64,000 nucleotides of DNA from Crotophaga sulcirostris. Lineage: Eukaryota > Chordata > Aves > Cuculiformes > Crotophagidae. A program made the translations under genes and the position numbers. Where the stretch lies: positions 63,324 through 127,323 of the forward strand of contig VYZB01000379.1 of assembly GCA_013397455.1 (NCBI GenBank), written 5' to 3'. How positions within the stretch are numbered: position 1 is the stretch's first letter; every line of letters starts with the position of its first letter. Below are positions 2,777-64,000 of the stretch, piece after piece. The notes beneath the pieces were generated by a model. It did not search any database, had not been told where the DNA came from, and saw only the letters and a list, made by a program, of their open reading frames with translations.

Positions 2777-2887
2777 GATCCTTTCATAGCATTTCATCTT
2801 GACAAGGCACTGGTAAGAAAATACATGAGCCCACTTTTAATTGGGGAACTGGCACCAGATCAACCCAGCTTTGAGCCCAGCAAGAAC
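2777..2887 (+). CDS. FADS1: Gene A exon 2 (end of cytochrome b5 domain)
   Basis: 111 bp, phase 0, acceptor TTTCAG and donor GTAAGT. It encodes [10 protein letters not shown] followed by [18 protein letters not shown]. The AFH histidine is, from family knowledge, the probable second heme ligand of the fused b5 domain. DPF rather than DAF links this copy to mammalian FADS1. Confidence 0.9.
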
Positions 2888-5800
2888 GTAAGTATCTTAA
2901 AAATTGGATTTTGTGTAGAAATTGTGCTGTTTAGCTTCTCTTAGTGGCAACAAGAATTCCTTGTACCGAAAATGGTAGTATCTCCAGGAATTGCTATGGT
3001 GGTCTGAAGCTTCCCTTCCTTTCTAGTGGAAGATGTCCCTGCCCATGGCAGGGAGGTTGGAACTGGATGATCTTTAAGGTCTCTTCCAACCCAAACCATT
3101 CTGCTTCCCTTTCACGTTATGTCATTATTAGTACTCTTAATAAAGATTTGTCTCCAGATGACCCTCAGCTTTTCCCCATTGCCACAGTAGCACCTTGAGA
3201 GGGGAAAATGAGCTCCTCTTTGGGTTCCTGAGGCAGTTTTAGACCAGCAGATACTCTTGGGTCTCCCTGCAGAAAAAACTGGTAGAAGATTTCCGTGAAC
3301 TCCGTGCAACCGTTGAGAAGATGGGGCTTCTCAACCCCAACCGTGCCTTTTTCATCCTGTATCTCTGCCACATCTTGGTGTTGGATGTTGCAGCTTGGCT
3401 CACCATCTGGTATTTTGGAGCATCCACAGTGTCTTTCCTCTTCTCTGCAGTGCTCCTTGGCACAGTCCAGGTAAGCAGCTAGGCAAAAAAGCTCCCCAGA
3501 AACACCAAAAGCCAACATTTTGAGGCTTAAGTGCTCGTTGCCATAACCACAGGAGAAATCTGATCTTCATAGACTTCCCAAAATTCTGCTTCTCCCTGGC
3601 TTCCACCAAAATTACAGGGCCACAACATGCTGCTTCGGTAGAGCAGGCTTTGCCCTGCTTTTTCCTTCCCATAGTCCATCAAAGCCCTCCTTATTCCCAT
3701 CCTCCTTCACACAATGAAAGCCATGCTGCCCTTCTGAGGTCCCTTTTGCCAGAGCTCCAAGGCGCTGTGTGGTGGCCAAGCCACCGTGTTCCCATGGGAA
3801 CTTGCAGAGTTAGAGGAGAGGGCAGAGCAGCTCTCAAAGCCCCAGCTATTTCTCCTGTGGCCAGCTGATCCTCTTGGAATTACAAGTACTCGGAGGAGGC
3901 AGCAGCAAGCTGCTCCTTAAAGGAGACTTTGTTGCCGATTCCAGTGCAGTTTTGTAAGAGAATAAATGCTGTTTCTGAGCTCCATGGCTTTTTTTTTTTC
4001 CTGATTTTTTTCTCCTTCCTCATGAAAACAACTTTCTGGGACTTAAAGCCATCAGGCAAAGTCTGGACTGCACTGGTATATAGTAAAAGACAAGTGGTTG
4101 GTTTGGGTTTTGGTAGTGTAAATGCTCTTGCTATCAGGAGTTATGTTGTGAGAAGCGTGGGAATGGGAGAAGAAAAGGCACTTTCCAGGTTCAGACCCTC
4201 TTTTTTCCCTAAAAGCACTGTTAATTTGTTTAATTTCAGGCCCAGGCTGGCTGGCTCCAGCATGATTTTGGACACCTTTCAGTCTTCAGCAAGTCCAGAT
4301 GGAACCACTGGGTGCACAAGTTTGTGATTGGCCATCTGAAGGTGGGCATTCAGTGCTGAGAGGGGCTGCTAGAGCCTTGCCCAGAATGCTCTGCAGGCAA
4401 AACCCATCTCAGTATAAGAAAAAAGCAAATGCAAGGAACTACTGGGGAGAGAGGACTAAGGGCAGAAGATACAACTTCTTTACAACACTCTCTTCTCACC
4501 CCTTCCTGCAGGGAGCGCCAGCCAGTTGGTGGAATCACCTTCACTTCCAACACCATGCTAAGCCCAACTGCTTCCGAAAGGACCCTGACGTTAACATGCA
4601 CCCCTTGTTTTTTGCTTTGGGAAAAACACTCTCTGTAGAGGTGAGACCTGGTGAAGGCTGGGAGGTTACAGCGTTAGGGTTCAGATCTGGGAAGCTGCAG
4701 AGAGCTTGGAGACACTGGTTGCTTTGGTCAATGAGCTGTCTCAGTATTTTAGGAATTTGGAGAAGGTGCATCTTGGCATTAATAACCTTTGAAAAACAAG
4801 AAGGAACAAGGTCCTGATGCATTACCAGCTTCCATATATTTAACTCTGCAACTAAGGGAGGAGAATCTGTTCACCCCTGTTCCTGTGGACACAGTTTAAT
4901 GCCTAGATGCTCATTTCTCTGCTTTGGAGATTAATTGCAAGTAGGTGGGGGTTCTACACACGCAGAGGTTTTTCTTTCTTTCCAAAGCTCTATGTGGAAG
5001 CTCTGCATCGGCAGGAAACTGTTCTCAGTGCCTCCTGTGGTTTTTTGGTTTTAAGTGTTGTTGGGCGACTGTGCCCTCTGTAGGGAAAGAGCTTCCAGTG
5101 CACGTTTGCTGTTTATGGTGCAAGGGACTACTCTTCTACAGCCAAGGCAGGGATGAAAACGTGTCGTAGCAGTCATAGATTGAAGTTCCAGGGAATGATG
5201 AAGCCAATGGCATGGAGGATGCTGGCATGGTTGACCTTTCAAAGGTTAGGAGGTATCTAAGCATGCATTTCTTTGAGAGTGTAGGTAGGAGTGTATGCAC
5301 AGATGTTTTTAGCTGCCTTCACAGCCTGAGTGATTTGCTTATTTCAACAGCTTGGTGCACAAAAGAAGAAATTCATGCCTTATAACCACCAGCACAAGTA
5401 CTTCTTCATCAGTGAGTAACCCCACCCTTTTGCTGTTCTATGGGCAGCATTTGCTCAACCCCTTCCTTTTCCAGTTCATCTCAATGGGATGAAAGGACAC
5501 AGTTAATGTCTCTGTAATCTATTTCTCCACACTAGTCGGTCCTCCAGCTCTGGTGCCTCTTTACTTCCAGTGGTACATATTCTACTTTGTGGTACAGCGG
5601 AAGCAGTGGGTGGTAAGTCAGCTCCACTTTCCCAGTGGTGACTTCTCTTTCTTTTATGGACACATTTCAGTGCAAGAAATTACTGGCAGGAACTCTGAGC
5701 TGTGTATCTCTCTAGCAAGGGGTGTGGGTGTACGATCTGGAGTGTTTGCTGGGGGAACAAAGGTGTCCACACAGCCCCTCTCCTTTGTATAAAAAAACAT

Positions 5801-8800
5801 TCAGGGAGAAAGTAGCAGAAATCATAGGGTTTGGAGGAAGATTCAGTGCAAGATGATGTATTAAAACCAGAGCAGCTTTGAGGTAGCCTAAAACCAAATC
5901 CTCACAGTTCAGTGTGAAGAGTATGTGTAGTAGACTTTTGGAGTCATTAGGAATGTAGTTTATTAGGGGAAGATCTAGGACCTTGAGAAATAGCATGTTT
6001 TTTAGAGATTTTAGGAAAAACACATAAAAAAGATGACTCTTGTCTGAGATGTGAGGGTTAGAGATAAGAAATCTTGGCTGTTTTATTCTTGCCTGGGAAG
6101 TGGGACAATCAGGAGAAAATGAACATGAGGGAAATAAGAGACTGCAAGAAATGCAAAGAGGAACAAAAAAGGATGGGATAGAAGCAAACCAGAGCTCTTT
6201 ATTCTTTTAATTGCCTAGTTTTTTTGTTTCCTCACTGCTTTGTTTCTCTTTAGATCCAGAGGAAAATGCGATGGTTTAGAGCATATCCTCTCCAGTGTTT
6301 GCTCTCTGCTGGGCTCCTAAGGCCAGAATAATTCCCATGCACAGGAATGACTGGGGAGTGGCTGTGTGTCACACTGCTTTGTGATGGGGCCAGGGAGAAA
6401 AAATATCTGTCAGTAGAAGTTATTATGGGATATTTTAAAGAGAGTGCCGGATAGAATGGTTGTTAAATTCAGAACCCAGTGATTTTTCCTCTTAATGAGG
6501 TTTTTATCTGTTCCCTGTACTACAGGACCTGGCCTGGATGCTGACCTTCTACATCCGATTCTTCCTCACCTATTTGCCCTTGCTGGGAGTGAAGGGTGTC
6601 CTGGGGCTCCATCTGTTAGTCAGGTATCACTCAATTTATAATTTATCTATTTTCTTTACTGAGTTTCTATCAATACTTCATGTCAGCTCTTCTTCAGCCT
6701 CCTGGTTATCTTTCTCATCTGCTCCCTATTCTTCTCTCTACTTATGCCTTTCAGCAAGGCAGAGGTTGGTGTCTGTCAGATGTGTGTCTTGAGAAGGTAG
6801 AAAGTGCCTGTGTGGAAAATAAAAGGTGTGTGTGGGACTGATCTGCTGAGCAGCTGTTTGGTGTCCCTGATGTTTATTTTATCCAGCAATGCCTGGCTTC
6901 TATGTACACAAGTGTTTTGTTATGGTATCAATGAGATGGTTTTGTGTGTGTTTGTATGCACAGGTTTATAGAAAGTAACTGGTTTGTCTGGGTTACACAA
7001 ATGAATCACATCCCGATGCACATTGATTATGATAAGAACGTGGACTGGTTCTCTACCCAGGTAAGACCTTCTTTCCAGAAACCTGTGGCTTTGAAAGTGA
7101 GAAGTCATAGTTCTGGGTACATAAAACTGATCACAGAAGGGATGGGAACTAAAAGAGGGAAACATAAGGACTTTGTCCTCGCTGTGCGATGTGAGTGGTT
7201 ATAGAAAATAATTAGAGATGCTAAAATGCTCTTCACATAGAGCTTTTTGTGCATGAAGGATGCAGATCTCTTTTGTGTGCTTGGTCTTATTTTGGTTCTG
7301 AAGCTATTACACAGTTTTTTTGAGTGAGAGAGGTGAATTTTATGGTTGTTATGGCTTATCTCACTGGGGAAATCAAGTCTCTTCTCCTAAATTACGTCCC
7401 TAACAACTGAGTATCCTAGTATGGCCATCTCATGGTGGCTGGAGATAGCTCTTTGAGTTGCTGTGTTCAGCCAGAAGGCCTGTGATGATAAGGAACTTGT
7501 ACCATCTTACTGTTGTGTTTGACACATGTAAAAGAAAGGGCATTCTGAAAATAATGCTTAAATGTTACTGCTTTTTCTCTCAGCTCCAGGCAACCTGTAA
7601 TGTTCATCAGTCCTTTTTCAATGACTGGTTTAGCGGACACCTAAACTTCCAAATCGAGCACCAGTGAGTTGAAGCATGGGTTGGGGGTGTAAGGGGATTT
7701 CAAGGAGTGCCACTTATGCTAGGGCTGAAGAGCCCACAAAGGTCCCTGTCTCTCTATCAGCTAACACAGGAACAAAAGATAACATCGGTAAATTTTGTGC
7801 TCTTTATATGGGGATGGAATGGGAACTCCCAAGTGATGGCTCAGAAGCTTTTGATTGAGCACCAACCCCACTTCAGATATGAGCAGTATGGTGGCACAGG
7901 AGGGAGAACTCACAGCCCCCTGGTTAGTACAGATACTGACTGAAGTGACACAAGAGGGACCACTACAGAGAATAAGGGCAGTGGAAACAAGGGGAGGTGG
8001 AGGCTCTCCCAGGTTTAGGCACAAAAGAGGAACAGGAATTCTCTGGGGTGATGACAGATGTCATTGATTCACCATGTTCTTTTCCCACAGCCTTTTCCCT
8101 ACAATGCCTCGACATAACTACTGGAAGGTGGCTCCTTTGGTGAAGTCCCTGTGTGCCAAACATGGTATTGATTACCAGTGCAAGCCGTTGTTCACTGCCT
8201 TTGCTGACATAGTGCAGTAAGTATCAACCCGCTGCATTCCCTAGGGGAAGGGTTTTCCAGTATTATGGAGTGAACAGGTGAGGGACATGGGAAGGGGAAA
8301 GGCGGCCAGCTTGGAGCACAGAAGTTCCGTGAAGAGCTGTAGGTAGTACCCATGAGTATGAAAGGGACTAGAAAACCATTCAGCAGTGTCGCTGCCTTCA
8401 GTAGCAGCAGGTAGAAGGTGTCAGTAGGAGTGACCTAATGGAGAGCTCCTTTTCTTCAGCTCTGAAGAGTCAGAGGTCGGTAGGATGCCAGATCTGGTGC
8501 CTCTGTCTCTGTGTACGCTCCAGGGAAACAGGTGTTTCCATAAAGATGAATTTGAACTGTCATTCATTCTTTCTTTTTTTTTTTCCTTTCTTCCCCTCCT
8601 TGCTCCCCACATATTTCTTATTCTGTTTTAAAGTGACATGGCTTTCTTTTGCCATGCTTGCTCCTTTGTTTTCATTCTAGCTAAGTTGTTTGCTTTGGTG
8701 TTTCACTCATTGCGGTAATCCCAGTGATTTGGGTCTTCATCTTTCCAGTGAGCTGTAGTCTACATTGCCTTGCCTCTGAAGCTCTCTGAGCAACCTGGTC

Positions 8801-9038
8801 TAGTTGAAGATGTCCCTGCTCACTGCAGGGAGTTGGACCAGATGACCTCTAAAGATCCCTTCCAACCCAAACTATTCTATAATCTCCTTTGCTAAATCTG
8901 TAGATGGGAATTCTTCCCACAAGGCTTTGTTCTGTGGATACTGTATTCCATTATGTTGTTTCTAAACAAATGTTCTCTCTTGGCAGCTCTTTGAAAGATT
9001 CTGGAGAGCTCTGGCTTGATGCCTATTTACATAAATAA
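2777..9038 (+). CDS. FADS1: Gene A: fatty acid desaturase 1 (delta-5, acyl-CoA (8-3)-desaturase), exons 2-12; exon 1 lies upstream of the window
   Basis: Exons read 2777-2887, 3273-3470, 4240-4341, 4512-4640, 5351-5411, 5536-5612, 6526-6623, 6964-7060, 7584-7663, 8091-8216 and 8987-9038, all with GT-AG introns, giving 376 residues before a TAA stop. Three histidine boxes are intact: HDFGH (4261-4275), HFQHH (4542-4556) and QIEHH (from 7650, split into the next exon). The product would be an ER membrane enzyme that inserts the delta-5 double bond, making arachidonate and EPA from DGLA and ETA. FADS1 rather than FADS2 is indicated by [28 protein letters not shown] and PLYFQWYI; vertebrate FADS2 has FRALR and PMYFQYQI at these places. 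The b5 heme-binding HPGG would be on the missing exon 1, which I searched for in 1..2776 and did not find. It is first in a same-strand array with genes B and C. No frameshift or in-frame stop is seen. Confidence 0.9.
3025..3103 (+). mobile_element. CR1 LINE fragment in gene A intron 2
   Basis: GATGTCCCTGCCCATGGCAG to TTCCAACCCAAACCATTCTG. A short 3'-end fragment inside a 385-bp intron, about 170 bp before exon 3. Confidence 0.8.
3273..3470 (+). CDS. FADS1: Gene A exon 3 (first membrane segments)
   Basis: 198 bp, the usual family size. It starts with the cytosolic linker [17 protein letters not shown] and continues into two hydrophobic stretches (around [13 protein letters not shown] and [10 protein letters not shown]) that would form the first transmembrane hairpin. 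Confidence 0.9.
4240..4341 (+). CDS. FADS1: Gene A exon 4 (histidine box 1)
   Basis: 102 bp. [16 protein letters not shown] carries histidine box 1, HDFGH, at 4261-4275. The exon ends in the conserved FVIGHLK, with the less common donor GTGGGC. Confidence 0.9.
4512..4640 (+). CDS. FADS1: Gene A exon 5 (histidine box 2)
   Basis: 129 bp. [19 protein letters not shown] carries histidine box 2, HFQHH, at 4542-4556. It ends at [10 protein letters not shown], as in mammalian FADS1. Confidence 0.9.
5351..5411 (+). CDS. FADS1: Gene A exon 6
   Basis: 61 bp, ending one base into an Ile codon. It encodes [20 protein letters not shown]. Gene B has one codon fewer in the matching exon. Confidence 0.88.
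5536..5612 (+). CDS. FADS1: Gene A exon 7 (substrate-specificity segment)
   Basis: 77 bp. [17 protein letters not shown] matches the FADS1 form of the segment that distinguishes delta-5 from delta-6 enzymes (FQWY here, FQYQ in mammalian FADS2). Acceptor ACTAG, donor GTAAGT. Confidence 0.88.
6526..6623 (+). CDS. FADS1: Gene A exon 8 (membrane segment)
   Basis: 98 bp. It encodes [20 protein letters not shown] and a further hydrophobic run ending LLVR, the second transmembrane region. The reading frame stays open past the donor (GTATCA) by chance; the normal junction restores RFIESNWF. Confidence 0.88.
6964..7060 (+). CDS. FADS1: Gene A exon 9
   Basis: 97 bp. It encodes [20 protein letters not shown] and [12 protein letters not shown], the strongly conserved loop before histidine box 3. 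MNHIPMHID is the FADS1 form. Confidence 0.9.
7584..7663 (+). CDS. FADS1: Gene A exon 10 (histidine box 3)
   Basis: 80 bp. It encodes [20 protein letters not shown] then NFQIEH, with the last His codon split across the intron. QIEHH, with Q in place of H in the first position, is diagnostic of front-end desaturases. Confidence 0.9.
8091..8216 (+). CDS. FADS1: Gene A exon 11
   Basis: 126 bp. It encodes [20 protein letters not shown] and CAKHGIDY, ending at DIV plus two bases of a His codon. The apparent CAG TAA here is the splice donor (GTAAGT), not a stop. Confidence 0.9.
8788..8884 (+). mobile_element. CR1 LINE fragment in gene A intron 11
   Basis: GATGTCCCTGCTCACTGCAG to TTCCAACCCAAACTATTCTA; 3'-end fragment about 100 bp before exon 12. 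Confidence 0.8.
8987..9038 (+). CDS. FADS1: Gene A exon 12 (C-terminus and stop)
   Basis: 52 bp. It encodes [16 protein letters not shown] and a TAA stop at 9036-9038, nearly identical to the C-terminus of mammalian FADS enzymes. The terminal lysine fits the dilysine-like ER tail of the family. Confidence 0.9.
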
Positions 9039-25743: not shown

Positions 25744-25927
25744 GGAGGCGGAGCTATGGAAGGGTGTGTTTGAGCAAGGGGAGCCAACCAGCCCTAGAAG
25801 CATAGGGAGTGGCTTGGGGTGAGAATGTATAATGGGCAGGCTGAGATACTTCACCATCTACCTGGATGCAGTGCTGCAAAGCTCAGACTAGTCAATCTCA
25901 GTGCTGACTGCACACCTACCAGGACGG
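25744..25927 (+). promoter_or_regulatory. Candidate promoter and 5' UTR of gene B
   Basis: A GC-box-like GGAGGCGGAGC lies at 25744-25754 and a TATA-like TATAAT at 25828-25833, about 100 bp before the first ATG of exon 1. The region is not CpG-rich, unlike the gene C promoter. About 1.7 kb upstream (24155-25820) is free of CR1. This is a sequence-pattern call only. Confidence 0.3.
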
Positions 25928-26146
25928 ATGGCTCCTCAGACTGGCTCCACTGAAAAGGAGACACGACCTGCCTCAGCCTTTCCACAGCTTTTCACTTGGG
26001 AAGAGATCAGAATCCACAATGGCCGTGGCCAAAGTAAGGAGCAATGGCTGGTGATTGACAGGAAGGTTTACGATGTCAGTGAGTTTTCCAAACGACACCC
26101 CGGAGGCAGCCGAGTTATTGGCCACTATGCTGGGCAAGATGCTACG
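25928..26146 (+). CDS. Gene B exon 1 (cytochrome b5 domain)
   Basis: 219 bp, 73 codons. It starts [11 protein letters not shown]; the b5 fold begins at [10 protein letters not shown] and continues [20 protein letters not shown], with heme ligand HPGG at 26096-26107. It ends GHYAGQDAT at donor GTAAGA. Base composition is near neutral, unlike the GC-rich equivalent in gene C. Confidence 0.9.
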
Positions 26147-29100: not shown

Positions 29101-32100
29101 AAAGAGTCAACTTGTTCTGACTTCTTCTAGTCTAAATTACTCGAAGATAGACTGTCTCTGAACAAGAGACTCCATATGTATTTTATATATATATATATGT
29201 ACACATATTCTTTCTATTTGAGGGTCTGCAGGAAAGCTGGGGAGGGGCTCTTGATCAGGGAGTGCAGGGACAGGATGAGAGGGAAGAATTTTAAGCTGAA
29301 AGAGGGGAGATTGAGATGAGATCTTAGGAAGAAATATTTTCCTATGAGCGTGGTGAGGCCCTGGCCCAGGTTGCCCAGAGCAGTGGTGGCTGCCCCATCC
29401 CTAGAGGTGTTCAAGATCAGGTTGGATGGGGTTTTCAGTGGATCCAGTGGGAGGTGTCCCTGCCCATGACAGGGGGCTTGGAACTCCATGAGCTTTAAGG
29501 TGCTTTCCAACCCAAACCATTCTGTGAGTCTATGGTTCTATAATACTTTTTTTTTTACCCTAGTGTAATAAAGACAGGATTTAAAAACATCTTTGTTTTC
29601 TCTGAAGGATGGTGAAGAGACACATCATTCATTGACGTGTTTATCTCCTCCTGGGTCACATCCATAGGGCAGGGCTGCCGGCTGGAGCCTTCTAGGGAAG
29701 GAACTATGCTGAAACAAGCAGATGAAAGAGCATGTTTCCCTCTGCAAAGAGTTTTTAATCAGACACTTTCATGTTTATTACCAGCCTCACCCAGATGTTT
29801 TATGACATCTAGTTTCTTGAAACTTTTCCAGCTTCCTTGGGCCAAGCTCCAGCTGATCGTAAAGAACTAGAGCAGCAACCAAAGGGACAAAAATTGAGAA
29901 AGGAAACTGGATTATGTATTATTCCAAAGACCTGGAGAAAGGTGAAGCTCAGCATCTGGTGTTTAGTCACAGGCCCTTTCTTACCCCCTTCTTTTGTGTT
30001 TTTCTCAGGATGCCTTTGAAGCATTTCACAATGATAAATCTCTGGTGAAAAAATACTTGAAATCACTGCTAATTGGGGAGTTGGCACCAGATCAACCCAG
30101 CTTTGAGACTAATAAAAAAGTAAGTGTCCTAGGATCCAACTGTGGAAATGACTTGAGGTTGAGTATGGGAGGAGAAGAAAAATATGAGAACTGGCAGAAA
30201 TAATTTGTGAAGCAGCATGCCTGACACCGTGCCATAGGCTGGGTGATGGGGAGGGAGCTGGCAGTAGTCATGCATGAAAACATGCACTGTCCCAGAAATT
30301 CTAAATCCACCCTTGGGGGTGAGGAATGAACCCCAGAGCCCCAAATTCTGCCCAGGTCTTCCCACCACAGTGTCTCAGTTAGAGAACCTGTCAGCAACTT
30401 GCTTTCCAGTGTCAAAGCAAAACCAATATCTGTTGATCTCATGCTCATTTCTGCACAGAGGCCCCTCTGATGGAATATCTTGGACTTCCATGGTTGCTTT
30501 GGGATTCCTTGGTCTGCTATGTTCCATTTTCAAAGTAGACCGTGCATTAATATTCATTTTACCCACAGAAATCACTTTTGGAAGATTTTCGTGAGCTGCG
30601 CTGCACTGTTGAGAAGATGGGGCTACTGAGACCAAATTACACCTTTTTCTTCCTGATTTTCATTCACCTCCTGGTGCTGGATGTTGCATCCTGGCTCGTG
30701 GTCTGGTACTTTGGGATATCCTTAGTACCTTTCGTCATTGGGATGGTGCTCTTCACCACAGCTCAGGTAAATCGACAGCTGTTTGCCATTGCAGACCTGT
30801 TTGGTTCTTCCAGATGGAGAGGATTAAACAATTGTTCATACCCCAGTCATTCCTTTACTGCCTCTTCCTATTATCTGGCTGAAGACAACAAGCACATTCT
30901 ACATCACAATTTTTTTGCCTCCAGCGAATCTCGTTTTGCTGACAAGGTGCTCACTAGAGTTGGTGAGCTGTTGCAGAGCAGGTAGTTTCACAAGATGGGA
31001 TGAGCTGATCTAACCACTTACGCCAGCAAAAGAGGGAATATTTCAATTTCAACTCCACTTTTGGCTCTGTGTTCCTGTCTGATGGCTCTGGTGCTTGTTG
31101 GGTCCTTTATGAGCCAATTACACTCAAAAGCCCCAAACAGTTTTCTGCTGGATTAATAAACTGAATCATGGAAGGGCATGATACATGTCAGAGCTGGTAT
31201 AGGAAAGGTGGGAACAGGAATTTGTTGTCCTTAGGCGGGAGAAGGTGGAGGGCAAGGAGAGGAAGAAAGCAAGATTTTCTGAGTAGCACTGAAATATTAG
31301 GTTTGCTCAGACATCCACAGAACAAGTGCAAAGTAACTCATTTTTTTAAATAACCTGCTCTATTGCCTAATATCTGCTAAGGCAGATATTCCTCAAAGAG
31401 CGTTCTTGTATTTTAATGAGAATATGAAATGCAACAAAGCTGTGGATTTGTAAATTCTTACACTTTCTAGCTGGTTCTTTGGAAATTAAATGTTTGCAAT
31501 GGGAGCAGTGAAATGAATTGTAGTGATGCTTTGCTGCTTTCCCTTTAGCTGCTACAATAAAATTAATATCTGGCACTGAGCAGCTTTAGTGGACAGTGGC
31601 CTGGAAGGAAGTTCTTAGCATTGAGCATGTAGGACAGTAGGCTACAGAGAGACCTTATAGCAGCTGTCCAGGACTTAAAGGGGGCTCCAGGAAAGCTGAG
31701 GAAGGGCTCTTGATCAGGGATAGCAGGGACAGGACAAGGTGGAAGAGTTTTAAGCTGAAAGAGGGGAGATTTTAGGAAGAAATTTTTTCCTGTGAGGGTG
31801 AGGAGCACAGGTTGCCCAAGGAAGCCATGGATGCCCCATCCCTGGAGGTGTTCAAGGTCAGGTTGGATGGGGATTGGAGCCCCCTGATCCAGTGGGAGGT
31901 GTCCCTGCCCATGGCAGGGGGTGGAACTGGATGGACTTTAAGGTCCCTTCCAACCCAAATTGTTCTATTATTCTATGACAGCAGGTAGTGTTTGTTCGCC
32001 AAACCAGAAGGAAGATGCACTCACACTATGAAGTTACAGAGACTCCAGAGGGAAATTAATACAGCGCTACTGTATCCTCAGTGATCCTTTTGTCCCCCAG

Positions 32101-35100
32101 ATCCAGATGGGCTGGTTCCAACATGATCTGGGGCACTGCTCTGTCCTCAGGACGCCTAAATGGAATCGACTTCTGCAGATTGTCATGATAAACATTCTGA
32201 AGGTAATTGACTCTTGGTGGGAATATTCTCTGGGGCTAATCTGGACTAAGCAATAAATGGGAGTGTCCCTACATTCGGGCAATATCGTCTGTGAGGGAAG
32301 TTTAGTGAAGCTGTCAATAACAGGTAGATAAACAGTGATGCAATTGTTAATATTGTTCCAGTTTGAATTCCTGGTCTTCAACTTTTCCTGCAGGGGTTGT
32401 CAGCCAGCTGGTGGAATCACCTGCACAACCAACACCATGCCAAACCCAACTGCTTCCGCAAAGACCCTGACCTCAACATGCACCCTCTCCTGTTCAGCTT
32501 GGGAAAGACCCTCTCCATGGAGGTGAGGATGGGGATGTCTGGAGACATAAAGATTTTAAAGATGGAAAGCTATAGAGTGAGGTATAATAATAATCCAGGT
32601 TGTGCATTTCTGCATAAACTCATGATAGAATGAAAGAATCGTAGAATGGTTTGGGTTGGAAAGGACCTTAAAGATCACCCAGTTGCACCCGCCCTGTCAT
32701 AGGTAGGGACACTTCCCACTGGATCAGGGGGCTCAAAGCCCCATCCAACTTAGCCTTTAACACCTCTAGGCATGAGGCAGCCACCACTTCTCTGGGCAAT
32801 CTGGGTCAGGGCCTCCTCACCCTCACAGGAAAAAAAAATTCTTCCTAATATCTAATCTAATTTCCAAAGCGTTCCATGGTGAGACTCTCAAGGACTGACT
32901 GCTTATGATGATGCTTAGGGCACCAGCTCCTGAGAAGCAAAGTGTTATAATCAGTGCTTAAATTCTCTGTGTCACTAGAAGAGTAGGGTAAGTGCCTTGA
33001 AGATGGTCCAAAGAACAAGTCAAGTGGACTGATTAATGCGTCAGTGTTAGATGTCATTAGTGATCCTGTAGATAATGAGTCACCTCTTCTCTCTGGTTCC
33101 TTTTGACTGTGGGAGCTGTTTTGCACCTAAACCCTTCAGGACCAGTATAGTAGCTACGCACAAAATACAACTGTAGCAAGTTATTTCTCAATCACAGATT
33201 TTATGACTTTCATAAAAATAAAAACTATGTACAGATGCTCCCTGTATCTTTAGGATTTCTGATATAATCAGGATAGGAAAAATCTCTTATGCCTTTTCTT
33301 TCCCTGGCAATTCTGTTTACTCATGGGGTGATGAAATGGCCTCTTTGCCAGATAATCGGCCTCTTAAAATAATGTCTCTCTCTCCTTTAGCTGACAATAT
33401 GCAAAGAAATTACAAGTCTCCAAGGCAGGTGGAAAATTCCAGTTCTGCAGTCTCAGAAAAACTCCTGTAAAGACGATTTATAAAAAATACTTATTCACAG
33501 AAAATTATTAACTGGGAAGGGGTTTGCCAGTGATCTTCATGGTTGCACGTTATTTTTATTATTTTATCCTTTGAAGAATCATAAGCACAACATTTGCAGA
33601 TAATGTTAAGAATCCTTTTGTGCTAACAGTGAAGAAAATACGTTATGAGGAAATAAATTTCCTAGTTCTTTTTGTAAATAGTTCATCTCTTTGCTGTTTC
33701 ATGTACTTGAAGGCAAAATATTCAACAAAACAAAAAGGCCGACATCTGTATAGAGAATTTACTACTTTGATCTTGCAGTCATTTTAGGATAGCACCCAAA
33801 TGCTTGTGTAATTTCTGGCCACTATCTCTTCTATTGCTCAAAAATTTTGGATGTCTGCATCCTATCTCATCTGATATAGAAACTGAGATGTAGCTTTCAC
33901 AGCAAACACATCCTGCATTCATCACCCATTAAGTTTTTTGTCTTAGATCTCATATTAATAGCCTGTTCCTCCCTGAGAGGTTGGAATAGAGCCTTTATGA
34001 GGTAGTTCTCAATGTGATCATTAGACAAGAATAAGGAACACCTTTTTAAGGTTCTCAGGTCTCTAACTGGCTCATTGCAATGTCCTTTAATCTTTCAGCT
34101 GGGAAAACAGAAGAAGAAGTTCATGCCTTACAACTATCAGCACAAGTATTTCATTTGTGAGTATCCCTGCTTCCTTACAGTGCTGTAGGAACTTCAGCTA
34201 AAAATCACAATTATTTCTCCCCCACCAAATAATGGTTTAAAAGAAACTCCAATTGAAATTGCAGCTTCAGGAAACTTCCTTCACGTTAAAGAAGTTTCAC
34301 ATGAGGAGGAATTGCTCCGTATGTCTTTGTTAGGATCCTGTGATGTTAGGAATTAGATATGAGTGAATAGAGCGTGAGAATGAATGGGGTGGGAAAAGAA
34401 TGAAGAAGTGGTGAGATGAAAAGAGAAAGTGATTGTGCAGATGCATGAAAGTTAGTGAAAATGGAAGACAGCAATTTTTCTTCCATTGGAAAGAAGCAGC
34501 TTTCTTCTTGCAGAAGAATATTCTGTAAGTTTTATGATACAATGAACTTATAAATGTCTCTCTCTTCATTCTTTCCTTCAGTATTGGCTCCACTTGCACT
34601 TGTACCCTTCTTCCAGTTTTCTGTCTTCTACTTTGCAATAAAGAGGAAAAAGTGGTTGGTAAGCACTGCTTGCATTGTCTAGAAGACTTTCCAAAAATAT
34701 CACTGCTCTGCAGCTTTATTAACCTCCACCTCAGTTATTTGTGGGTCTTAAGATAGAAAAAGCTTACTCAAGGCTTGCTGTAGCAGGAATCATAGAATCA
34801 TTAAGGTTGGGAAAGACCTTTACGCTCATCCAGTCCAACCATCAGCCCAGCACCACCATGCTGACTAAACTGTGTCACAAAGTGCCACGTCTACACATTT
34901 TTAAACACCTCCAGGGATGGAGACTCCACCATTTCTTTGGGCAGCCTGTTCAAGTGTTTGACCGTTCTTTTGGTAAAGACATTTTCTAATATCCAATCTA
35001 ACTCTCCCCTAGGGCAACTTCAGACCGTTTCCTCTCATCCTATCACTTGTTACTTGGGAGAAGAGTCCGTGCAGTCAACAGATCCAGGGAGATATTTTTA

Positions 35101-37306
35101 ATGAGAGGTTTTTTAGCCTCTCAGCAGTTGAATAAAATTAAACAGAAAATTATTAGACCTAGACAGTGTGTGATTAGAGGGCTGTTTCTAGGTCTTCAGT
35201 TACTGGTAGGAAAGTTGGTGCTATGGGAATATTTCAGGAATACACTCAACTTGAGGCAGAATGATAGTGTAAGTTTTTGTAAGTAAGTGTAACTCCTTTT
35301 ATGCTGCGCTTTGGATAAAGAGGAGAGGAGGGGGTTTACCAGCAAAGGCTTATTCTAAATATTTATTTATTTATTTATTGTTTCTTGGGTTTGTTTTTTT
35401 ACAGGACCTGATATTGACTGTGTCTTACAACATCAGAGTCTGTCTCATGTATGTTCCTTTAATGGGATTTAGCAACTTCATGGTGTACTACTGGCTGTCC
35501 AGGTAACACTCAGCATACCCAGACTGGCCAGGACAAGTATTTGTAAACAATAGTGAGCTTCAACGGGAATAAATGAAAATTGGCTCTAATCGCTACAATT
35601 TTCTCATAAATATGCAGTCAGTCAAGAAGGAACAGCATAATTTGGCAGGGGGGATGGGGATGGTGGCTGCTCAGGGTCATCTGCAACTACAAATTTAGTG
35701 GTTCTCAAAAGAAACTCCAAAAGTCAGGAGGCAAAAGAATGGAATAGAAACCCCTGAATTATGTAAAGGTGCTCTTTTGCTTACGATGAGACTTGGGAAA
35801 ATGTTTTAATGATAAATCTGGATGGGTTTAGAGATATGACAAGTGTTTCTGTGCTTATCTGCCCAGGTTCCTAGAGAGTACCTGGTTTATTTGGGTTTCA
35901 CAAATGAATCACATTCCAATGGACATTGATTATGACAAGAATGAAGACTGGGTCTCCACTCAGGTGAGAATATCCTTTCTTCTGAAAGAGTGGGTCTACA
36001 GTTCTGAATTACAGGGCAAAGACAATGTTATTCTCTTAGCTTCAATGCTCTGTTAATGAGGTTTGTCCTCGCTTTTTTAATAGGAAAGCATTTCTGTAGC
36101 AGTCAAAACATTTAAAACTTTAGCTGAACAATGGGACATGTAGATTGAAAAATAATCCTATTTTTCCACCAAAAGTTTTTAATATATTTTTCACAACACT
36201 TTTCCCTTCCTATTACAAAAAAGTAGGAATGGTAAGACAGTCAATTTCCTTCTTAGACCAACTAAAGAGAAGCAAATTGAAACTGGATACCTTTATATTT
36301 TTACCCTACGGGTTACAGGTTTACAAGATAAATCTGTCAAAATTTAAGTATGAAAAAAATGAATATGTAAATACAACCATACTCATATCTGTACTGCCTC
36401 CAGCAGTATAAACCCACATAGTGGTTTCTAAGTATTTTTTCCTACATAAAGGGAAAAAGATCCAGTGTGATGTTCATCTGTATATTGGCCTTTCTTCCTC
36501 CCAGGTCCATGCAACATGCAATGTGAACCAGTCTTTGTTCAATGACTGGTTTACTGGGCACTTGAACTTCCAAATCGAGCATCAGTGAGTATGATTATGG
36601 GGAGAGGAGTGGGAATAATATGGGGCACTTAAAAGTGAGAAAGGTCACATGGTCTCACATTAAACCATCTCAGCAGACCCTTTGCTCTCTTTCTGAGGGA
36701 GGGCAGGGAAATATTTTGGACAAAAGGAGCAAAGAGTGGTGCAAGCAAAGTCTTACAAGAACTCTCTCTCATTCAATCTTGCAGCCTTTTCCCCACAATG
36801 CCTCGACACAACTACTGGAAAGCAGCTCCTCTGGTGAAATCCCTTTGTGATAAGCATGGCATTGAGTACAAGAGCAAGACTTTGTTGACAGCTTTTGTAG
36901 ATATTTTGCAGTACGTATCAACTAACAACACAGGTTTGCAGTGTAATAACATTCAATGGAGGGTCATGGGCAACCATTTTCAAATCAACACCCATGGAGA
37001 CATCAACCCTAAAGTTTATCAAGTTTTTCTAAAGGCACTTTTAGTTTGCGAAATTTTCAGAATTTCAAAGATTTTTCTCTTCCTTTAATCCTCTCAGCCC
37101 ATTCCCTGCAGTCAGTCTTTGCTATGAGATGTCCATGCAGTTTTCAATCCGTTTTTCCATTTACTTCTTTTTAAATCTAAACTACAGTTTGCTTCCCATG
37201 AATCTGAATATTGTCTCCCCATAAGCGATTTTTTTTTACTTTCTATTCTTGCAGTTCACTGAAGGATTCTGGGGAGCACTGGCTTGAAGAATATCTGCAC
37301 GGGTAG
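25928..37306 (+). CDS. Gene B: complete FADS1-like front-end fatty acid desaturase (acyl-CoA (8-3)-desaturase-like), divergent paralog
   Basis: Exons: 25928-26146, 30009-30119, 30569-30766, 32101-32202, 32394-32522, 34099-34156, 34582-34658, 35405-35502, 35867-35963, 36505-36584, 36785-36910, 37255-37306. Joined they give 448 codons and a TAG stop, with all introns GT-AG. The b5 domain has HPGG at residues 57-60; histidine boxes are HDLGH (184-188), HNQHH (221-225) and QIEHH (386-390), so heme and di-iron ligands are complete. The start is the first in-frame ATG (GG before, G at +4). Exon identity with gene A is uneven by my count: about 84% in exon 5, 78-79% in exons 9 and 11, but only 44% in exon 4 and 33% in exon 8. 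It lacks one codon near the exon 6/7 junction and has FQFS where FADS1 has FQWY. Lack of decay indicates a protein under selection. The substrate cannot be read from sequence. Chicken annotation, from memory, has FADS1-like neighbours (FADS1L1, FADS1L2) that may correspond. Confidence 0.88.
26994..27085 (-). mobile_element. Degraded CR1 fragment in gene B intron 1
   Basis: CACCCTCACAGGAAAACGGT with CCTCCCCTCTTTTAGCTTAA, an internal CR1 piece without either end. Similarity is weaker than in the other copies. Confidence 0.5.
27811..28325 (-). mobile_element. CR1 LINE fragment in gene B intron 1
   Basis: AGAATCACAGAATGGTTTGG through CTGAACAAGCCCAGCTCTCT to GATTCCAGAACTGGACACAG; well preserved, about 515 bp. 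Confidence 0.88.
29222..29543 (+). mobile_element. CR1 LINE fragment in gene B intron 1
   Basis: From GCAGGAAAGCTGGGGAGGGG to the 3' end CAAACCATTCTGTGAGTCTA. An AT dinucleotide run lies just upstream at about 29181-29199. Confidence 0.86.
30009..30119 (+). CDS. Gene B exon 2
   Basis: 111 bp. [18 protein letters not shown] followed by [25 protein letters not shown] and KYLK are shared with gene C but not gene A. The exon ends in an A-rich run at donor GTAAGT. Confidence 0.9.
30569..30766 (+). CDS. Gene B exon 3 (first membrane segments)
   Basis: 198 bp. [19 protein letters not shown], then two hydrophobic runs ([18 protein letters not shown] and [10 protein letters not shown]). The frame stays open through the donor GTAAAT to a stop at 30983-30985. 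Confidence 0.9.
31630..31978 (+). mobile_element. CR1 LINE fragment in gene B intron 3
   Basis: From GAGACCTTATAGCAGCTGTC to CCAAATTGTTCTATTATTCT; lies about 120 bp before exon 4. Confidence 0.83.
32101..32202 (+). CDS. Gene B exon 4 (histidine box 1, divergent)
   Basis: 102 bp. [16 protein letters not shown] keeps box 1 (HDLGH, 32122-32136). The second half, ending VMINILK, has lost the family FVIGHLK motif. Only 15 of 34 residues match gene A. Confidence 0.88.
32394..32522 (+). CDS. Gene B exon 5 (histidine box 2)
   Basis: 129 bp. [19 protein letters not shown] keeps box 2 but as HNQHH (32424-32438) instead of HFQHH. The remainder ([20 protein letters not shown]) is close to gene A: 36 of 43 residues match. 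Confidence 0.9.
32625..32860 (-). mobile_element. CR1 LINE fragment in gene B intron 5
   Basis: GAATCGTAGAATGGTTTGGG to TTCTTCCTAATATCTAATCT; about 100 bp after exon 5. Confidence 0.85.
34099..34156 (+). CDS. Gene B exon 6 (one codon short)
   Basis: 58 bp against 61 in gene A. It encodes [19 protein letters not shown] and one base of the next codon. The donor GTGAGT is strong and no alternative donor nearby restores the missing codon. Confidence 0.87.
34582..34658 (+). CDS. Gene B exon 7 (substrate-specificity segment, divergent)
   Basis: 77 bp. [17 protein letters not shown] replaces the [17 protein letters not shown] of gene A. The WY pair that follows FQ in FADS1 is FS here. Splice sites are TTCAG and GTAAGC. 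Confidence 0.86.
34788..35075 (-). mobile_element. CR1 LINE fragment (variant subfamily) in gene B intron 7
   Basis: ATCATAGAATCATTAAGGTT and CCAGTCCAACCATCAGCCCA through CTTGTTACTTGGGAGAAGAG. Confidence 0.83.
35405..35502 (+). CDS. Gene B exon 8 (most diverged exon)
   Basis: 98 bp. [20 protein letters not shown] and a hydrophobic tail ending YYWLSR. Only 11 of 33 residues match gene A, though the length is unchanged and the segment is still hydrophobic with no stop. Confidence 0.86.
35867..35963 (+). CDS. Gene B exon 9
   Basis: 97 bp. [20 protein letters not shown] then [12 protein letters not shown]; 25 of 32 residues match gene A. Strong conservation directly beside the highly diverged exon 8. 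Confidence 0.9.
36505..36584 (+). CDS. Gene B exon 10 (histidine box 3)
   Basis: 80 bp. [20 protein letters not shown] then NFQIEH, with the last histidine codon completed in exon 11. Front-end desaturase QIEHH is intact. Confidence 0.9.
36785..36910 (+). CDS. Gene B exon 11
   Basis: 126 bp. [28 protein letters not shown] and onward to FVDIL; 33 of 42 residues match gene A. Donor GTACGT. Confidence 0.9.
37255..37306 (+). CDS. Gene B exon 12 (C-terminus and stop)
   Basis: 52 bp. [16 protein letters not shown] and TAG at 37304-37306. The family terminal lysine or glutamine is glycine here, so the dilysine-like ER tail seen in gene A is absent. Confidence 0.9.
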
Positions 37307-59269: not shown

Positions 59270-59640
59270 GGGGAAAGGAGGAGGGCGGGGGTGCAGGGAG
59301 GATCGGGGCGTGTCCCAGCCTTATATTCCATGGCTGGAGTGGGACGCTGGGACGCAGGAGGGAGGGATGGCAGCCCTGCAGGGTGCTGGGGAGGTGGGTG
59401 AAGAGCAGGATGGGGACCCAGCGGGCAGCCCGGAACCGCGGCGCTTCACCTGGGAGGAGATCGGGGAGCGGAACGGCCGGGGCCCGCGGTCGCAGGAGCG
59501 CTGGCTGGTGATCGAGAGGAAGGTGTACGACATCAGCCACTTCTGCCGGAGGCACCCGGGAGGCTCCCGCGTCATCAGCCACTACGCCGGGCAGGACGCC
59601 ACGGTGAGCAGCGTGGCTGGAGGGGGGCGAGGATGCTCTC
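59270..59640 (+). promoter_or_regulatory. CpG-island-like promoter region of gene C
   Basis: The stretch is strikingly GC- and CpG-rich compared with the rest of the window. A consensus Sp1 box GGGCGGGG lies at 59283-59290 and a TATA-like TTATATT at 59321-59327, about 40 bp before the preferred ATG. A CR1 fragment ends just upstream at about 59190. Confidence 0.5.
59367..59603 (+). CDS. Gene C exon 1 (cytochrome b5 domain)
   Basis: 237 bp, 79 codons, very GC-rich, with most third positions G or C. Starts [14 protein letters not shown]; heme motif HPGG at 59553-59564; ends SHYAGQDAT at donor GTGAGC. Confidence 0.88.
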
Positions 59641-62600
59641 GGTACCCGTTCCCATGGGGATGCAGGGCGAGGAGCAGACCGGTACCCCGCCAGCATCTCG
59701 CAGAGAGAGCATGGGAGGCGAGCTGGGGTGGGGTCCGGGGTGCGGAGCAGCTTGGAGAGGATGTAGAGTGGCTGCTCGGCACAAGCTTTGCAACCTCAAT
59801 GTGGTGGAAACGGGCAAATGAGAAGGTTTAGCCCATGGGGCAACCAGACTGTGTTTATCCATAAAATCATGGAATGGATTGGGTTGGAAGGGACCTCAAA
59901 GCCCATCCAGTCATGGGCAGGGACACTTCCCACTGGATCAGGGTGCTCAAGACCCCATCCAACCTGGCCTTGAACACCTCCAGGGATGGGGCAGCCACCA
60001 CTTCTCTGGGCAGTCTGGGCCAGGGCCTCCCCCCCTCAATGCAAAGAATTTCTTATTGATGCCTAATCTAAATCTTCCCTCTTCCAATTTAAAGCCATTC
60101 CCCCTTGTCCTATCACTTCTTGCCCTTGTAAAAAGTCCCTTCCTGGGTTTCTTGTAGCCCCTCAGGTACTGGGAGACTGCACTAAGTTTCCCCCAGTGCC
60201 TTCTCTTCTCCAGGCTGAACAAACCCAACTCTTTCAGCCTGTCCTCGTAGCAGAGGTGCTCCAGCCCTCAGATCATCTTTGTGGCCTCCTCTGGACCCAT
60301 TCCAACAGTTTCGTATCCTCCTTATGTTGGGGATTCCAGATCTGGACACAATAATCCAGGTGGGGTCTCTCCAAAGTGGAGCAGAGTGGCTCAAATTCCT
60401 CCCTCCCCTCTGGTCTCCCTGCTTTGGATGCAGCCCAGGACAAGATTGGCTTTCTGGGCTGGCAGCACACGTTGCTGGCTTATCTTGAGCTTCTCACCCA
60501 CCAGCACCCCAAGTCCTTCTTGGCAGAGCAGCTCTCAATCACATCGTAAAGTCAGTACTTAAAGGAAACCTACAGGAAAACTGGGGAGGGGCTCTTTATC
60601 AAGGAGTGTATGGATAGGACTAGAAGAGCACTTCAGCTCTTCTCAGGTGGGAGCAATTTTCTCAGGAAAGCACGTTGATACTTTCTTAACGGGGCAGAAA
60701 AGAAAGGGAAGGCAACAGAAGCTTTGTAGGTACCTTAAACAGCTATTTGTGAGATGACAGTACAGCATAGATTATAAAGGTCTTTAGCTCAGTCTGGATT
60801 CCAGAATGAAGTGAGAATCAATAACTGACAGGCTGAGAGAGTTGGGGTTGTTCAGTGTGGAGAAGAGAAGGCTCTGGGGAGACCTCAGAGCAACCTCCAG
60901 TACTGAAAGGGGCTCCAGGAAAGCTGGGGAGGGGCTCTTGATCAGGAAGTGCAGGGACAGGACGAGGAGGAATGGTTTTAAATTGAAAGAGGGGAGACTG
61001 AGATGAGATCTTAGGGAGAAATGTTTTCCTGTGAGAGTGGAGAGGCCCTGGCCCAGGCTGCCCAGAGCAGTGGTGGCTGCCCCATCGCTGGAGGTGTTTA
61101 AGGCCAGGCTGGATGGGGCTTGGAGCCCCCTGATCCAGTGGGAGGTGTCCCTGCCCATGGCAGGGAGGGTGGAACTGGATGATATCTAAGGTCCTTTCCA
61201 GCCCAAACCATTCTTTGATTCTATGATTTTCTCTCTGGACAAATTGCACAGCAAAGAAGATTCTGGTCTGCTGATAAGAAAGGTCTTTTGGGCACCTGGA
61301 TGTCCAGGAAGATGGAAAATTGACTAATATATCTAATATGTGGGGTTGAGAAGAGGGGGGAGAAAAGCAAGGGAGCTAGACTCTGATTCAGGTGTATGAT
61401 GGGAATTCATGGAGCTTGCATAACTTTAGTAACTGTTGTAGTAGTGGAAGTCAGACCTCTTCCATTTGCCAGCTGAAATATTTCGTTTAAGAGCGTAGGA
61501 CAAAATAATGAAGAATGTCAACAAAAGCTTGAGGAGGTAGAAATGTAAACCCACCATCTTTGCTACTGTGGTGCCTTCAGAGTGAATGTCTTGTTGTGTG
61601 CGACAGATTGAGGTTAGTAACATAGAATTTATTTTTCTTACTTCTCCCTTTGCTCTTATGATTTTGCAGGATGCCTTTGAAGCGTTCCATGTAGACAAGG
61701 AGATGGTGAGCAAGTACTTGAAACCACTGCAGATTGGGGAGCTGGCACCAGATCAGCCCAGTATTGAGCCCACTAAAAATGTAAGTCTATCCTCTTAAAT
61801 CAGATCAAAGATAGATGAAAGGGAAATATCCTTGAGTTTAGACGTTGTTCTTCTGTATTAAGGTAGCTCCTGGAACAGTGAGATCCAGGTTCTTCACATT
61901 TTTTTCTGCTGCTACTTAGAAACAATACATGAATGTTAGTCTAAACCCACATTATGTGGATGAAAATGAGACTCCTGAAGATGAATTCTTATCACAGCAA
62001 CACTGCATAAATAGAAGAGCCTTGCTTTGCTCTGGTGAATTTCACATCTATCACGTTTTCTTCTTTCTCTTGCTTTATGAAAGAGTGAACCAAAACCACT
62101 GCATGTAGAGTCTTCTGGCCTTGAATTAAGTTTCACAGCCTGCATTGGCATTGCCCTTTTGGACAGCCTTCTTATAGCAGCCTCAAGGTCATTCACAGAG
62201 TGATCGTTCGGTGTTGATGGTTACTCTTCATGTTGAAGGGGTGCAAGATGGCCCCTTGTAACTCAGACATTGGAAACACAATTTGGAGTAGGCTGGCTGT
62301 TCCAGAATGGCATGGCCATACTTCCCATGGAGATCGGAACCGAATGAACCCTCTTACTCATATGTGGCCATGCCTTGCCTATTTCTCAATTCCATAGCTG
62401 GCCTACACCAGAGTCTGCACGTACCTTGCTCCATGCAAACTCCAGTTTCCTCCAAGTGATTGTGAAAGTAGGCTGGCAAACTCCTTTGTGCATTGGGTTG
62501 CATGGAGACAGGAATCGGGCTTGGAGAAGCATCTGCAGAGCTGGTAAAGACAAAAGTGGGTTGGTTTAGCAACTAGACCAGCACCTTGTGCTGTGTTCGT

Positions 62601-64000
62601 TTCTTCTATCCTCCTTCCTCAGTGTTCACCAGCCTGAGGTTGGATGGGTTGTAGGTACCATTTTTCATACAGGCATTTAACCCTTCCCTGTTGCTCTTGG
62701 GAAAGGTAAAGTGAAGACATGTATTTATCTATTGGAACTGGTGGCAGAAGAGGAATAACTTCATCCAAAAGACCTACCACATGATCTTATGCTGTGTTCA
62801 TGCACATAGAATACAACTTCCATCTAAGCCCTTTGCTTTGTGCCAAGAAGATGATGGAACAAGCACCAAAGATATAGTCCTAGGGTTTGGGCATACAGAC
62901 ACTGGGCTCTGTGATGTCTTTGCTGATAAGAAGCAAGCAGTAGCCACAGAAAAGCTGTAGGGGAACAAAGATGAAGTTTACTAGTGTGCAAGCCCAGCTT
63001 TTGCCCATTTGGCCAGATCCTTTGCTCTTTCTTTACTCCATTAAAATGGTCCTTGTGTTTTGAGGCTGTAATGCTATGTTCCAGAAAGAGAAACATGTAA
63101 CACTGGTGCTTCCCACAGAAAATGCTGGTGGAAGACTTCCGTGAATTGCGAGCTACTGTTGAGAAAATGGGACTTCTGAAGCCAAATCAACTCTTCTTCT
63201 TCCTGCACCTCGCTCACATTCTCCTGTTGGATATCTCTGCTTGGCTCATTCTCTTCTACTTTGGGACATCCTTAATGCCCTTTATTGTCTCTCTGTTGGT
63301 GCTGACCATTTCCCAGGTAAGCAACTAAGTCGACAGCATGTGGACTTGCATCAACTTTCATACACATAATACTATTGCAGTTTTCTAGTCCTCCATTTCC
63401 TTACTTGGCATAGTCCTTTGTCATAACATCAGGGAGGTTTAGAATGGAGATTAGGAAAAATTTCTTTACTGAAAGAGTGATGAAACATTGGAACTGGTTG
63501 GCCAGGGAACTGGCGGAGTCACCACTCCTGGAGGCATTAAATGTGTAGATGTGGCTCTTCAGGACAGAATTTAGTAGGCACAGTGGTGTTGGACTGATGA
63601 TTGGACCGTACGAGCTCAGAGGTCTTTTCCAACCTTAAATGATTCTATGAGTCTAAGATACTAAGAAGATAATCACTATATGGCATGTGTTTACAGAACG
63701 TGTAAAGAAGAAATTCTGCATGTGGGGAGCTCCTACTACATCTAGTCTGGGATTCTTTCAGCAAGATGTGTTCTGGGGCAAGACATAAGAGTATCAGGAT
63801 TTCATAGTTCCTTTCCAGTTGTCACTTTGGAGCAGCGTCTGTGAAATAAATCTTGATATTTCAAAGCAAAGGAAGGGTGTGATACTGTCCTGGTCTCAGT
63901 TTCTGTTTCTCTCCTCTCCCAGTGTTTTCTATTTCCTCTTCCAGGTCCAGGCTTCGTGGTTACAACATGATTTGGGACATCTTTCAGTATTCAAGAAGAT
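59367..64000 (+). CDS. Gene C: FADS1-like front-end fatty acid desaturase (acyl-CoA (8-3)-desaturase-like), exons 1-4, truncated by the window end
   Basis: Exons 59367-59603, 61670-61780, 63119-63316 and 63945-64000 (cut by the window edge) give the first 200 residues, with GT-AG introns. The b5 domain runs from [10 protein letters not shown] to HYAGQDAT with heme motif HPGG at residues 63-66; exon 2 gives the AFH histidine; exon 4 carries histidine box 1, HDLGH (63966-63980). [14 protein letters not shown] and GELAPDQPS place it with FADS1 rather than FADS2. DAFEAFH and KYLK are shared with gene B and differ from gene A, suggesting B and C are closer to each other. The chosen ATG has G at -3 and +4; an in-frame ATG at 59268 could add 33 residues. 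Boxes 2 and 3 lie outside the window, so completeness cannot be judged. Confidence 0.87.
59861..60542 (-). mobile_element. CR1 LINE fragment in gene C intron 1, longest in the window
   Basis: AAAATCATGGAATGGATTGG through GTGGCCTCCTCTGGACCCAT to AGCACCCCAAGTCCTTCTTG. About 680 bp, retaining a region lost from most copies. Confidence 0.88.
60569..60621 (+). mobile_element. Small CR1 internal fragment
   Basis: CTACAGGAAAACTGGGGAGG to AGTGTATGGATAGGAC, bounded by unrelated sequence on both sides. Confidence 0.6.
60822..61226 (+). mobile_element. CR1 LINE fragment in gene C intron 1
   Basis: From GACAGGCTGAGAGAGTTGGG to the 3' end CATTCTTTGATTCTATGATT. Confidence 0.87.
61670..61780 (+). CDS. Gene C exon 2
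   Basis: 111 bp. [20 protein letters not shown] then [17 protein letters not shown]. Acceptor TTGCAG, donor GTAAGT. Confidence 0.9.
63119..63316 (+). CDS. Gene C exon 3 (first membrane segments)
   Basis: 198 bp. [19 protein letters not shown], then hydrophobic runs around [13 protein letters not shown] and [11 protein letters not shown]. Donor GTAAGC. Confidence 0.9.
63432..63655 (+). mobile_element. CR1 LINE fragment in gene C intron 3
   Basis: From GAGGTTTAGAATGGAGATTA to the 3' end AATGATTCTATGAGTCTA; variant subfamily. Confidence 0.83.
63945..64000 (+). CDS. Gene C exon 4, partial (histidine box 1)
   Basis: The first 56 of an expected 102 bp. [18 protein letters not shown] carries histidine box 1 (HDLGH, 63966-63980). 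The window ends inside the exon. Confidence 0.88.

Follow-up and report, generated by a model that had tools for sequence, protein, structure and literature searches.

Gene B and the organization of the FADS cluster

This locus raises the question of whether gene B, one of three FADS1-type genes on a single contig of Crotophaga sulcirostris, encodes a desaturase with a changed substrate channel around a retained catalytic core, or is a copy in decay. The window, which is the whole stretch of 64,000 nucleotides that was analysed, corresponds to C846:63324-127323 in a genome of 1.06 Gb. The bird FADS cluster is ordered as FADS2 on the minus strand, followed by gene A (the conserved FADS1 copy), gene B, and gene C, all three on the plus strand. 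The features are as follows, in window coordinates except for FADS2.

Contig 51506-34010, minus strand: FADS2
2777..9038, plus strand: gene A, conserved FADS1 copy by sequence and tree, exons 2-12
25928..26146, plus strand: gene B exon 1, cytochrome b5 domain (Pfam Cyt-b5 PF00173, E 1.9e-24), HPGG at 26096-26107
30009..30119, plus strand: gene B exon 2, AG/GT borders
30569..30766, plus strand: gene B exon 3
32101..32202, plus strand: gene B exon 4, box 1 HDLGH at 32122-32136, NILK (for GHLK) at 32191-32202
32394..32522, plus strand: gene B exon 5, box 2 HNQHH at 32424-32438
34099..34156, plus strand: gene B exon 6 (58 nt), shorter by one codon than its counterparts in gene A, gene C, and FADS2
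34582..34658, plus strand: gene B exon 7, FQFS at 34611-34622, where FQWY is expected
35405..35502, plus strand: gene B exon 8, close to the B-clade pattern (approximately YNIRVCLMY.PLMGF..FM.YYWL.R)
35867..35963, plus strand: gene B exon 9
36505..36584, plus strand: gene B exon 10, box 3 QIEHH starting at 36571 and finishing across the exon 10/11 junction
36785..36910, plus strand: gene B exon 11
37255..37306, plus strand: gene B exon 12, stop codon included
59367..64000, plus strand: gene C, the third gene of FADS1 type, exons 1-4, with exon 4 truncated at the window edge

Gene A exon 1 lies outside the window, and a run of 11,665 N adjoining the left edge (C846:51659-63323) covers the expected place of this exon as well as the FADS2-FADS1 interval. 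Gene C runs on in the contig to window coordinate 72644. The top protein matches were from birds, gene A being 98% identical to Cuculus canorus. When a B orthologue was used as a query against the genome, all 33 exon-level matches listed as best candidates were on C846. A genome search with PF00487 gave two matches, both elsewhere (L001, C1037:540454-541086, and L002, C1250:185511-186140), each within one open frame, 274 and 270 residues long respectively. A tandem repeat with a period of 39 and 4.2 copies occupies positions 1-163 of the window.

Gene B (25928-37306, plus strand) is complete, with 12 exons encoding 448 amino acids, AG/GT borders, and no internal stop. It carries an FA_desaturase domain (PF00487, E 9e-34) with the boxes HDLGH, HNQHH, and QIEHH, and the combination of a Cyt-b5 domain bearing HPGG with three histidine boxes identifies it, as far as sequence can tell, as a front-end (cytochrome b5 fusion) desaturase. 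The two-domain plan, exon structure, histidine boxes, and HPGG are those of FADS1, the delta-5 or acyl-CoA (8-3)-desaturase. Unlike FADS1, gene B has HNQHH as its second box, no GHLK, FQFS, no proline 277, an exon 8 pattern of its own, and one residue less ahead of the four-residue window in which FQFS stands. Upstream, at 25736-25990, a stretch resembling MEEEGA.EGC was noticed by eye only and is apparently out of frame; several predicted B proteins start with a similar sequence spliced into exon 1.

Divergence between genes A and B

The initial annotation located the differences between genes A and B in particular exons, and the values that it quoted were exact. Amino acid identity is 44% (15/34) in exon 4 and 33% (11/33) in exon 8, and reaches 84% (36/43) in exon 5, 78% (25/32) in exon 9, and 79% (33/42) in exon 11; pooled over exons 2-12 it is 67% (251/375). 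The span marked as remodelled, 32101-35502, is exactly the stretch bounded by the first base of exon 4 and the last base of exon 8, and the motif changes (NILK for GHLK, HNQHH for HFQHH, and FQFS for FQWY) were found as described. So was the retained catalytic core, with all catalytic histidines present in gene B. Two statements needed qualification: HPGG is kept in gene B but has no counterpart for comparison in gene A, whose exon 1 is missing from the window, and only 10 of the 11 comparable exons agree in size, since exon 6 measures 58 nt in gene B and 61 nt in gene A, gene C, and FADS2.

In exon 4 of this genome, gene A is 88% identical to FADS2 and 44% to gene B, while in exon 8 the corresponding values are 52% and 33%. 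Exon 5 goes in the opposite direction, with 71% identity between A and FADS2 and 84% between A and B. The dN/dS ratio between A and B was 0.50 in exon 4, 0.58 in exon 8, and 0.16 overall, values that are weak evidence because dS between the paralogues is about 1.3 or saturated.

Phylogeny and origin of gene B

Two trees were built with 81 and then 67 database rows, picked for completeness and taxon spread among those returned, the second tree being rooted on 14 FADS2 rows. Gene B fell outside the 14-row FADS2 group. It was also not in the clade of the conserved bird FADS1 copy, where gene A is grouped (4 rows, support 100/98), and belonged instead to a clade of its own, which in the rooted tree holds 21 rows (100/100) from birds, Alligator, and two squamate groups. 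The B and C clades together (36 rows, 100/99) lie within a sauropsid FADS1 group of 44 rows (99/99), and mammals, amphibians, coelacanth, sharks, and lamprey form earlier branches of the FADS1 side. Since B and C are nested in sauropsid FADS1 in the rooted tree, mammalian FADS1 has three co-orthologues in this genome, genes A, B, and C, and gene B descends from FADS1 after the FADS1/FADS2 split, making it FADS1 in the wide sense. Its clade spans birds, Alligator, and squamates, so the duplication predates the bird-squamate split; branching order among the sauropsid lines was only partly resolved. Two B rows were observed for each Alligator species and two B groups for squamates. The first tree included 7 turtle rows, none of which belonged to the B clade, and of 5 turtle rows recognised by name among the best 120 matches to B, the 4 that were placed were all outside B, making loss of the gene in turtles possible.

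Gene B is therefore an extra Fads1-type gene of the sauropsid Fads1-like expansion, which Castro et al. (2012, PMC3285190) described for chicken and anole "with yet unknown functional consequences". Chicken has three Fads1-type genes and Fads2 according to that report, and anole has five and Fads2; the number in the present bird, three FADS1-type genes and FADS2, is the same as in chicken. The accessible text of Castro et al. gives the copies no function or channel analysis.

Orthologues and the possibility of decay

Seven full-length bird clusters were 81-90% identical to gene B, and their members sum to 332 (203+6+87+2+26+4+4), which is a number of sequences, not species. Predicted bird B proteins often skip or misread parts of exons 6-8, the most divergent stretch, and the following predictions are broken there.

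P0007, P0010, P0011, P0013, P0016-P0024, P0026, P0028, P0029
P0032, P0035, P0038, P0059, P0070, P0079, P0080, P0105

These models read through introns or skip the divergent exons, and homology-based annotation may be blind to exons 6-8 of gene B. One of them, P0018, is labelled as an isoform by its source. Broken predictions were excluded from the trees and site counts. Two birds with broken models, Callipepla and Strigops, were counted in the within-B exon comparison and lower its values for exons 6-8.

The missing or scrambled parts in many predicted B proteins could be taken to mean that gene B is losing function, as a relaxed, weakly active or inactive copy heading to decay, and gene B does evolve faster than gene A, the copies of the window being 88-90% identical to three passerine orthologues for B and 95% identical to Hirundo for A. 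However, the breaks are of the intron read-through or exon-skipping kind and full-length models exist in other birds. The B clade predates the bird-squamate split, and its catalytic histidines are intact in 34/34 rows, a count that says nothing about the frequency of decay since these rows were chosen as full-length. Exons 5 and 10 of bird B evolve at 0.30-0.55 of the mean protein rate. We consider loss of function very improbable and rejected decay of gene B on the intact 12-exon gene, the conserved histidines, and the ancient clade. The initial view that gene B has changed rather than decayed therefore stands, and the conserved core exons, the full-length bird orthologues, and a clade of birds, Alligator, and squamates all support it.

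Clade-wide states of motifs and exon 6

Site states were counted in 34 B rows (8 bird, 4 Alligator, and 22 squamate), 18 FADS1 rows, 16 C rows, and 14 FADS2 rows. The catalytic histidines and the HPGG proline are kept in all 34 B rows, which were picked as full-length, and proline 277 is missing from all of them. From the tyrosine of KYF to the glutamine of FQ, the protein has 15 residues in 32 of the B rows and 14 in the other 2, compared with 16 in every FADS1 row (18/18), every FADS2 row (14/14), and all 5 bird C rows; the 11 other C-clade rows have 16 (6 rows), 15 (4 rows), or 14 (1 row). Although the exact site of the residue lost before FQ is ambiguous in the alignment, the shortening of exon 6 is a clade-wide feature of B.

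GHLK was found in none of the 34 B rows and in 17/18 FADS1 rows. NILK was seen only in gene B of this bird, other B rows having many different endings. The tyrosine of FQWY is similarly absent from all 34 B rows and present in all 18 FADS1 rows, so that both losses are traits of the clade and are not specific to this bird. At the last residue of the four-residue window, serine occurs in 8/8 bird B rows and 8/9 rows of one squamate group, Alligator B has isoleucine, threonine, or alanine, and the second squamate group has mostly isoleucine. The third and fourth positions thus differ among B groups, and there is no single fixed motif. Of the 8 bird B rows, 6 have HNQHH and the two parrots HHQHH; HNQHH is also present in 4/4 Alligator rows and in 13/13 rows of one squamate group, while the other squamate group has phenylalanine at the variable site in 8 of 9 rows. 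Gene B is, in short, an intact and ancient FADS1 copy with changes common to crocodilians and lizards, most of them in segments expected to border the fatty-acid channel.

Exon rates and concentration of substitutions

Rates were expressed relative to the protein mean, using 16 vertebrate FADS1 rows and bird B rows without and with the parrots (6 and 8 rows). Vertebrate FADS1 gave 0.42 for exon 4, 0.57 for exon 7, and 1.77 for exon 8, and bird B gave 1.56/1.44, 1.12/1.55, and 1.62/1.74 (6/8 rows), respectively. Because exon 8 is fast in FADS1 and B alike, the rate shift sits in exons 4 and 7, and exon 8 is more informative in its residues than in its rate. Bird-only FADS1 (5 rows) gave 0.44, 0.22, and 1.06 for the same exons; this set also gave 2.88 for exon 9 and 6.88 for exon 12, probably from faulty models, and the 16-row vertebrate set was used instead.

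Exons 4 and 8 have diverged in different ways. The exon 8 of six non-parrot B birds is 70% identical to Alligator B and 62% and 70% identical to the two squamate groups, compared with 33% to sauropsid FADS1, and mutual identity of exon 8 among vertebrate FADS1 rows is 66%. A pattern near that given for exon 8 above is found from lizards to birds, which makes this exon a stable signature of the B clade. For exon 4, B birds are 53% identical to Alligator, 58 and 51% to the squamate groups, and 54% to FADS1. Within B, the second half of exon 4 has 71-73% identity in birds, 50% in Alligator, and 55-62% in squamates, and is thus loose and not rebuilt to a pattern.

We then scored 248 FADS1-conserved sites in exons 2-12 by majority state. 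Bird B differs at 24 of 59 sites in exons 4, 7, and 8 and at 16 of the other 189 sites (odds ratio 7.4; p 6e-8 by Fisher's test), and the whole B clade at 23/59 and 12/189 (odds ratio 9.4). The FADS2 control showed no skew (10/59 and 34/189, odds ratio 0.93). A milder skew was seen in bird C (16/59 and 16/189, odds ratio 4.0, p 6e-4) and in other C rows (12/59 and 10/189, odds ratio 4.6, p 1e-3), and the skew is consequently not unique to B. These tests treat sites as independent, and their p-values are descriptive because the exons were picked after the finding and a first look at the data and because the sites share a tree. A stricter test requiring 90% fixation in both clades left 10 sites and gave p 0.024 for exons 7 and 8. 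Among 34 changes fixed in bird B (at least 6/8 rows), 27 depart from a state common to FADS1 and FADS2, and the new residue is the majority residue of bird C in 2 cases and of FADS2 in 1; gene B, in other words, does not take FADS2 states.

Predicted effect on the substrate channel

The FQWY/FQFS column aligns with the four-residue window of fish Fads2, which is used to recognise delta-4 Fads2 and is reported to set regioselectivity (PMC5478668, citing Lim et al. 2014). Teleost delta-4 enzymes with YXXN offer a parallel, as their regiospecificity is tied to the same window in the accessible part of that source, although they belong to a different gene and FQFS is not YXXN. Rat FADS2 Leu323 has been modelled near the substrate site (PMC7072455, accessible text). 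With rat FADS2 numbering verified against three mammalian FADS2 rows of 444 residues, the Leu323 column falls in exon 8 and has tyrosine or phenylalanine in 34/34 B rows; FADS1 has phenylalanine in 12/18, histidine in 5/18, and leucine in 1/18. In a structural model of a B orthologue, exon 7 is predicted to lie mostly within a long helix (264-293), followed by the helices of exon 8 from position 297 on, and by inference these helices are membrane helices that border the pocket. The four-residue window and the Leu323 column make the proposed remodelling of the channel plausible; the two low-identity exons, 4 and 8, differ in kind.

The reading that we lean towards, with modest confidence, is that gene B encodes an active front-end desaturase of altered chain-length or positional specificity. 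Selection would have maintained it as an acyl desaturase within a FADS1-like clade of ancient sauropsid origin. As in FADS1, its cytochrome b5 domain would pass electrons to a di-iron center that the three histidine boxes hold in place. The altered part would be the pocket in which the acyl chain is positioned: ahead of the regioselectivity window the helix has lost one residue, Leu/Phe-Ser stands where FQWY has the bulky Trp-Tyr, the conserved proline 277 is gone, and exon 8 has its clade-specific form. The outcome would most likely be an acyl chain length or double-bond register unlike that of the FADS1 delta-5 reaction. A change of substrate or regiospecificity, as put forward in the initial annotation, is thus the best reading of the sequence, and the change is an ancient trait of the clade, not an innovation of this bird.

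Alternatively, gene B could still be a delta-5 enzyme whose channel-side exons drifted under looser constraint while the copy was kept for another tissue or regulation (subfunctionalisation). Bird B keeps FADS1 states at other reported determinants (leucine at the Arg216 and Gln245 columns, histidine at 236), which is consistent with unchanged delta-5 chemistry, and exon 5 is 84% identical to that of gene A. The variability of the second half of exon 4 and of exon 7 inside B is something that relaxed constraint would also give. Drift of this kind fits less well with the 27 of 34 fixed bird-B changes that leave the common FADS1/FADS2 state, and the exon 8 pattern, the absence of proline 277, and the shorter run of residues ahead of the four-residue window are all clade-wide. 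We regard a conserved delta-5 activity as somewhat unlikely.

It is also conceivable, but quite unlikely in our estimate, that gene B acts on another lipid class, such as a sphingoid base or a complex-lipid acyl group. The family has a precedent in mammalian FADS3, described as a delta-14Z sphingoid base desaturase (PMC7029104, accessible text), and the changes in B diverge from both acyl-CoA enzymes; against this, the sequence gives no pointer to any particular class.

Bird FADS1-like genes and gene C

In willow warbler, FADS2, FADS1L1, and FADS1L2 are in tandem on chromosome 5, with nonsynonymous differences in a region differing between migratory phenotypes (PMC9883250, accessible text). 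FADS1L1 and FADS1L2 of bird annotations resemble gene B in standing in tandem beside FADS2; gene B may be either of them or neither. Genes so named appear in work on bird migration, on hen follicles, and on chicken fat cells, and the names imply a delta-5 activity for which our literature search found no test. That search returned no assay of a FADS1L1/FADS1L2-type gene or other bird or reptile Fads1 paralogue, nor was one present in the accessible text of PMC9883250, PMC8019497, PMC10815237, PMC6194568, and PMC6121796. No product, expression, or solved structure of gene B was found, and as far as the search showed the gene is uncharacterised. Gene B may make a product other than its database name implies, and if the product does differ, bird and reptile omega-3 and omega-6 pathways drawn from gene names would need revision. 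The shortening before the four-residue window, FQ(L/F)S, proline 277, and the exon 8 pattern make a short testable list.

The four-residue windows of the four genes in this genome are FQIQ in FADS2, FQWY in A, FQFS in B, and FHCH in C. A broader and more tentative reading is that B and, differently, C are desaturases restricted to sauropsids, whose regiochemistry or substrates have no known counterpart in mammals. With four genes and four different windows, birds would then make unsaturated lipids that are hidden by the name "(8-3)-desaturase-like". Gene C may differ in function as strongly as B does; it is intact, with HSQHH as box 2, FHCH in the four-residue window, and CHLI where GHLK stands.
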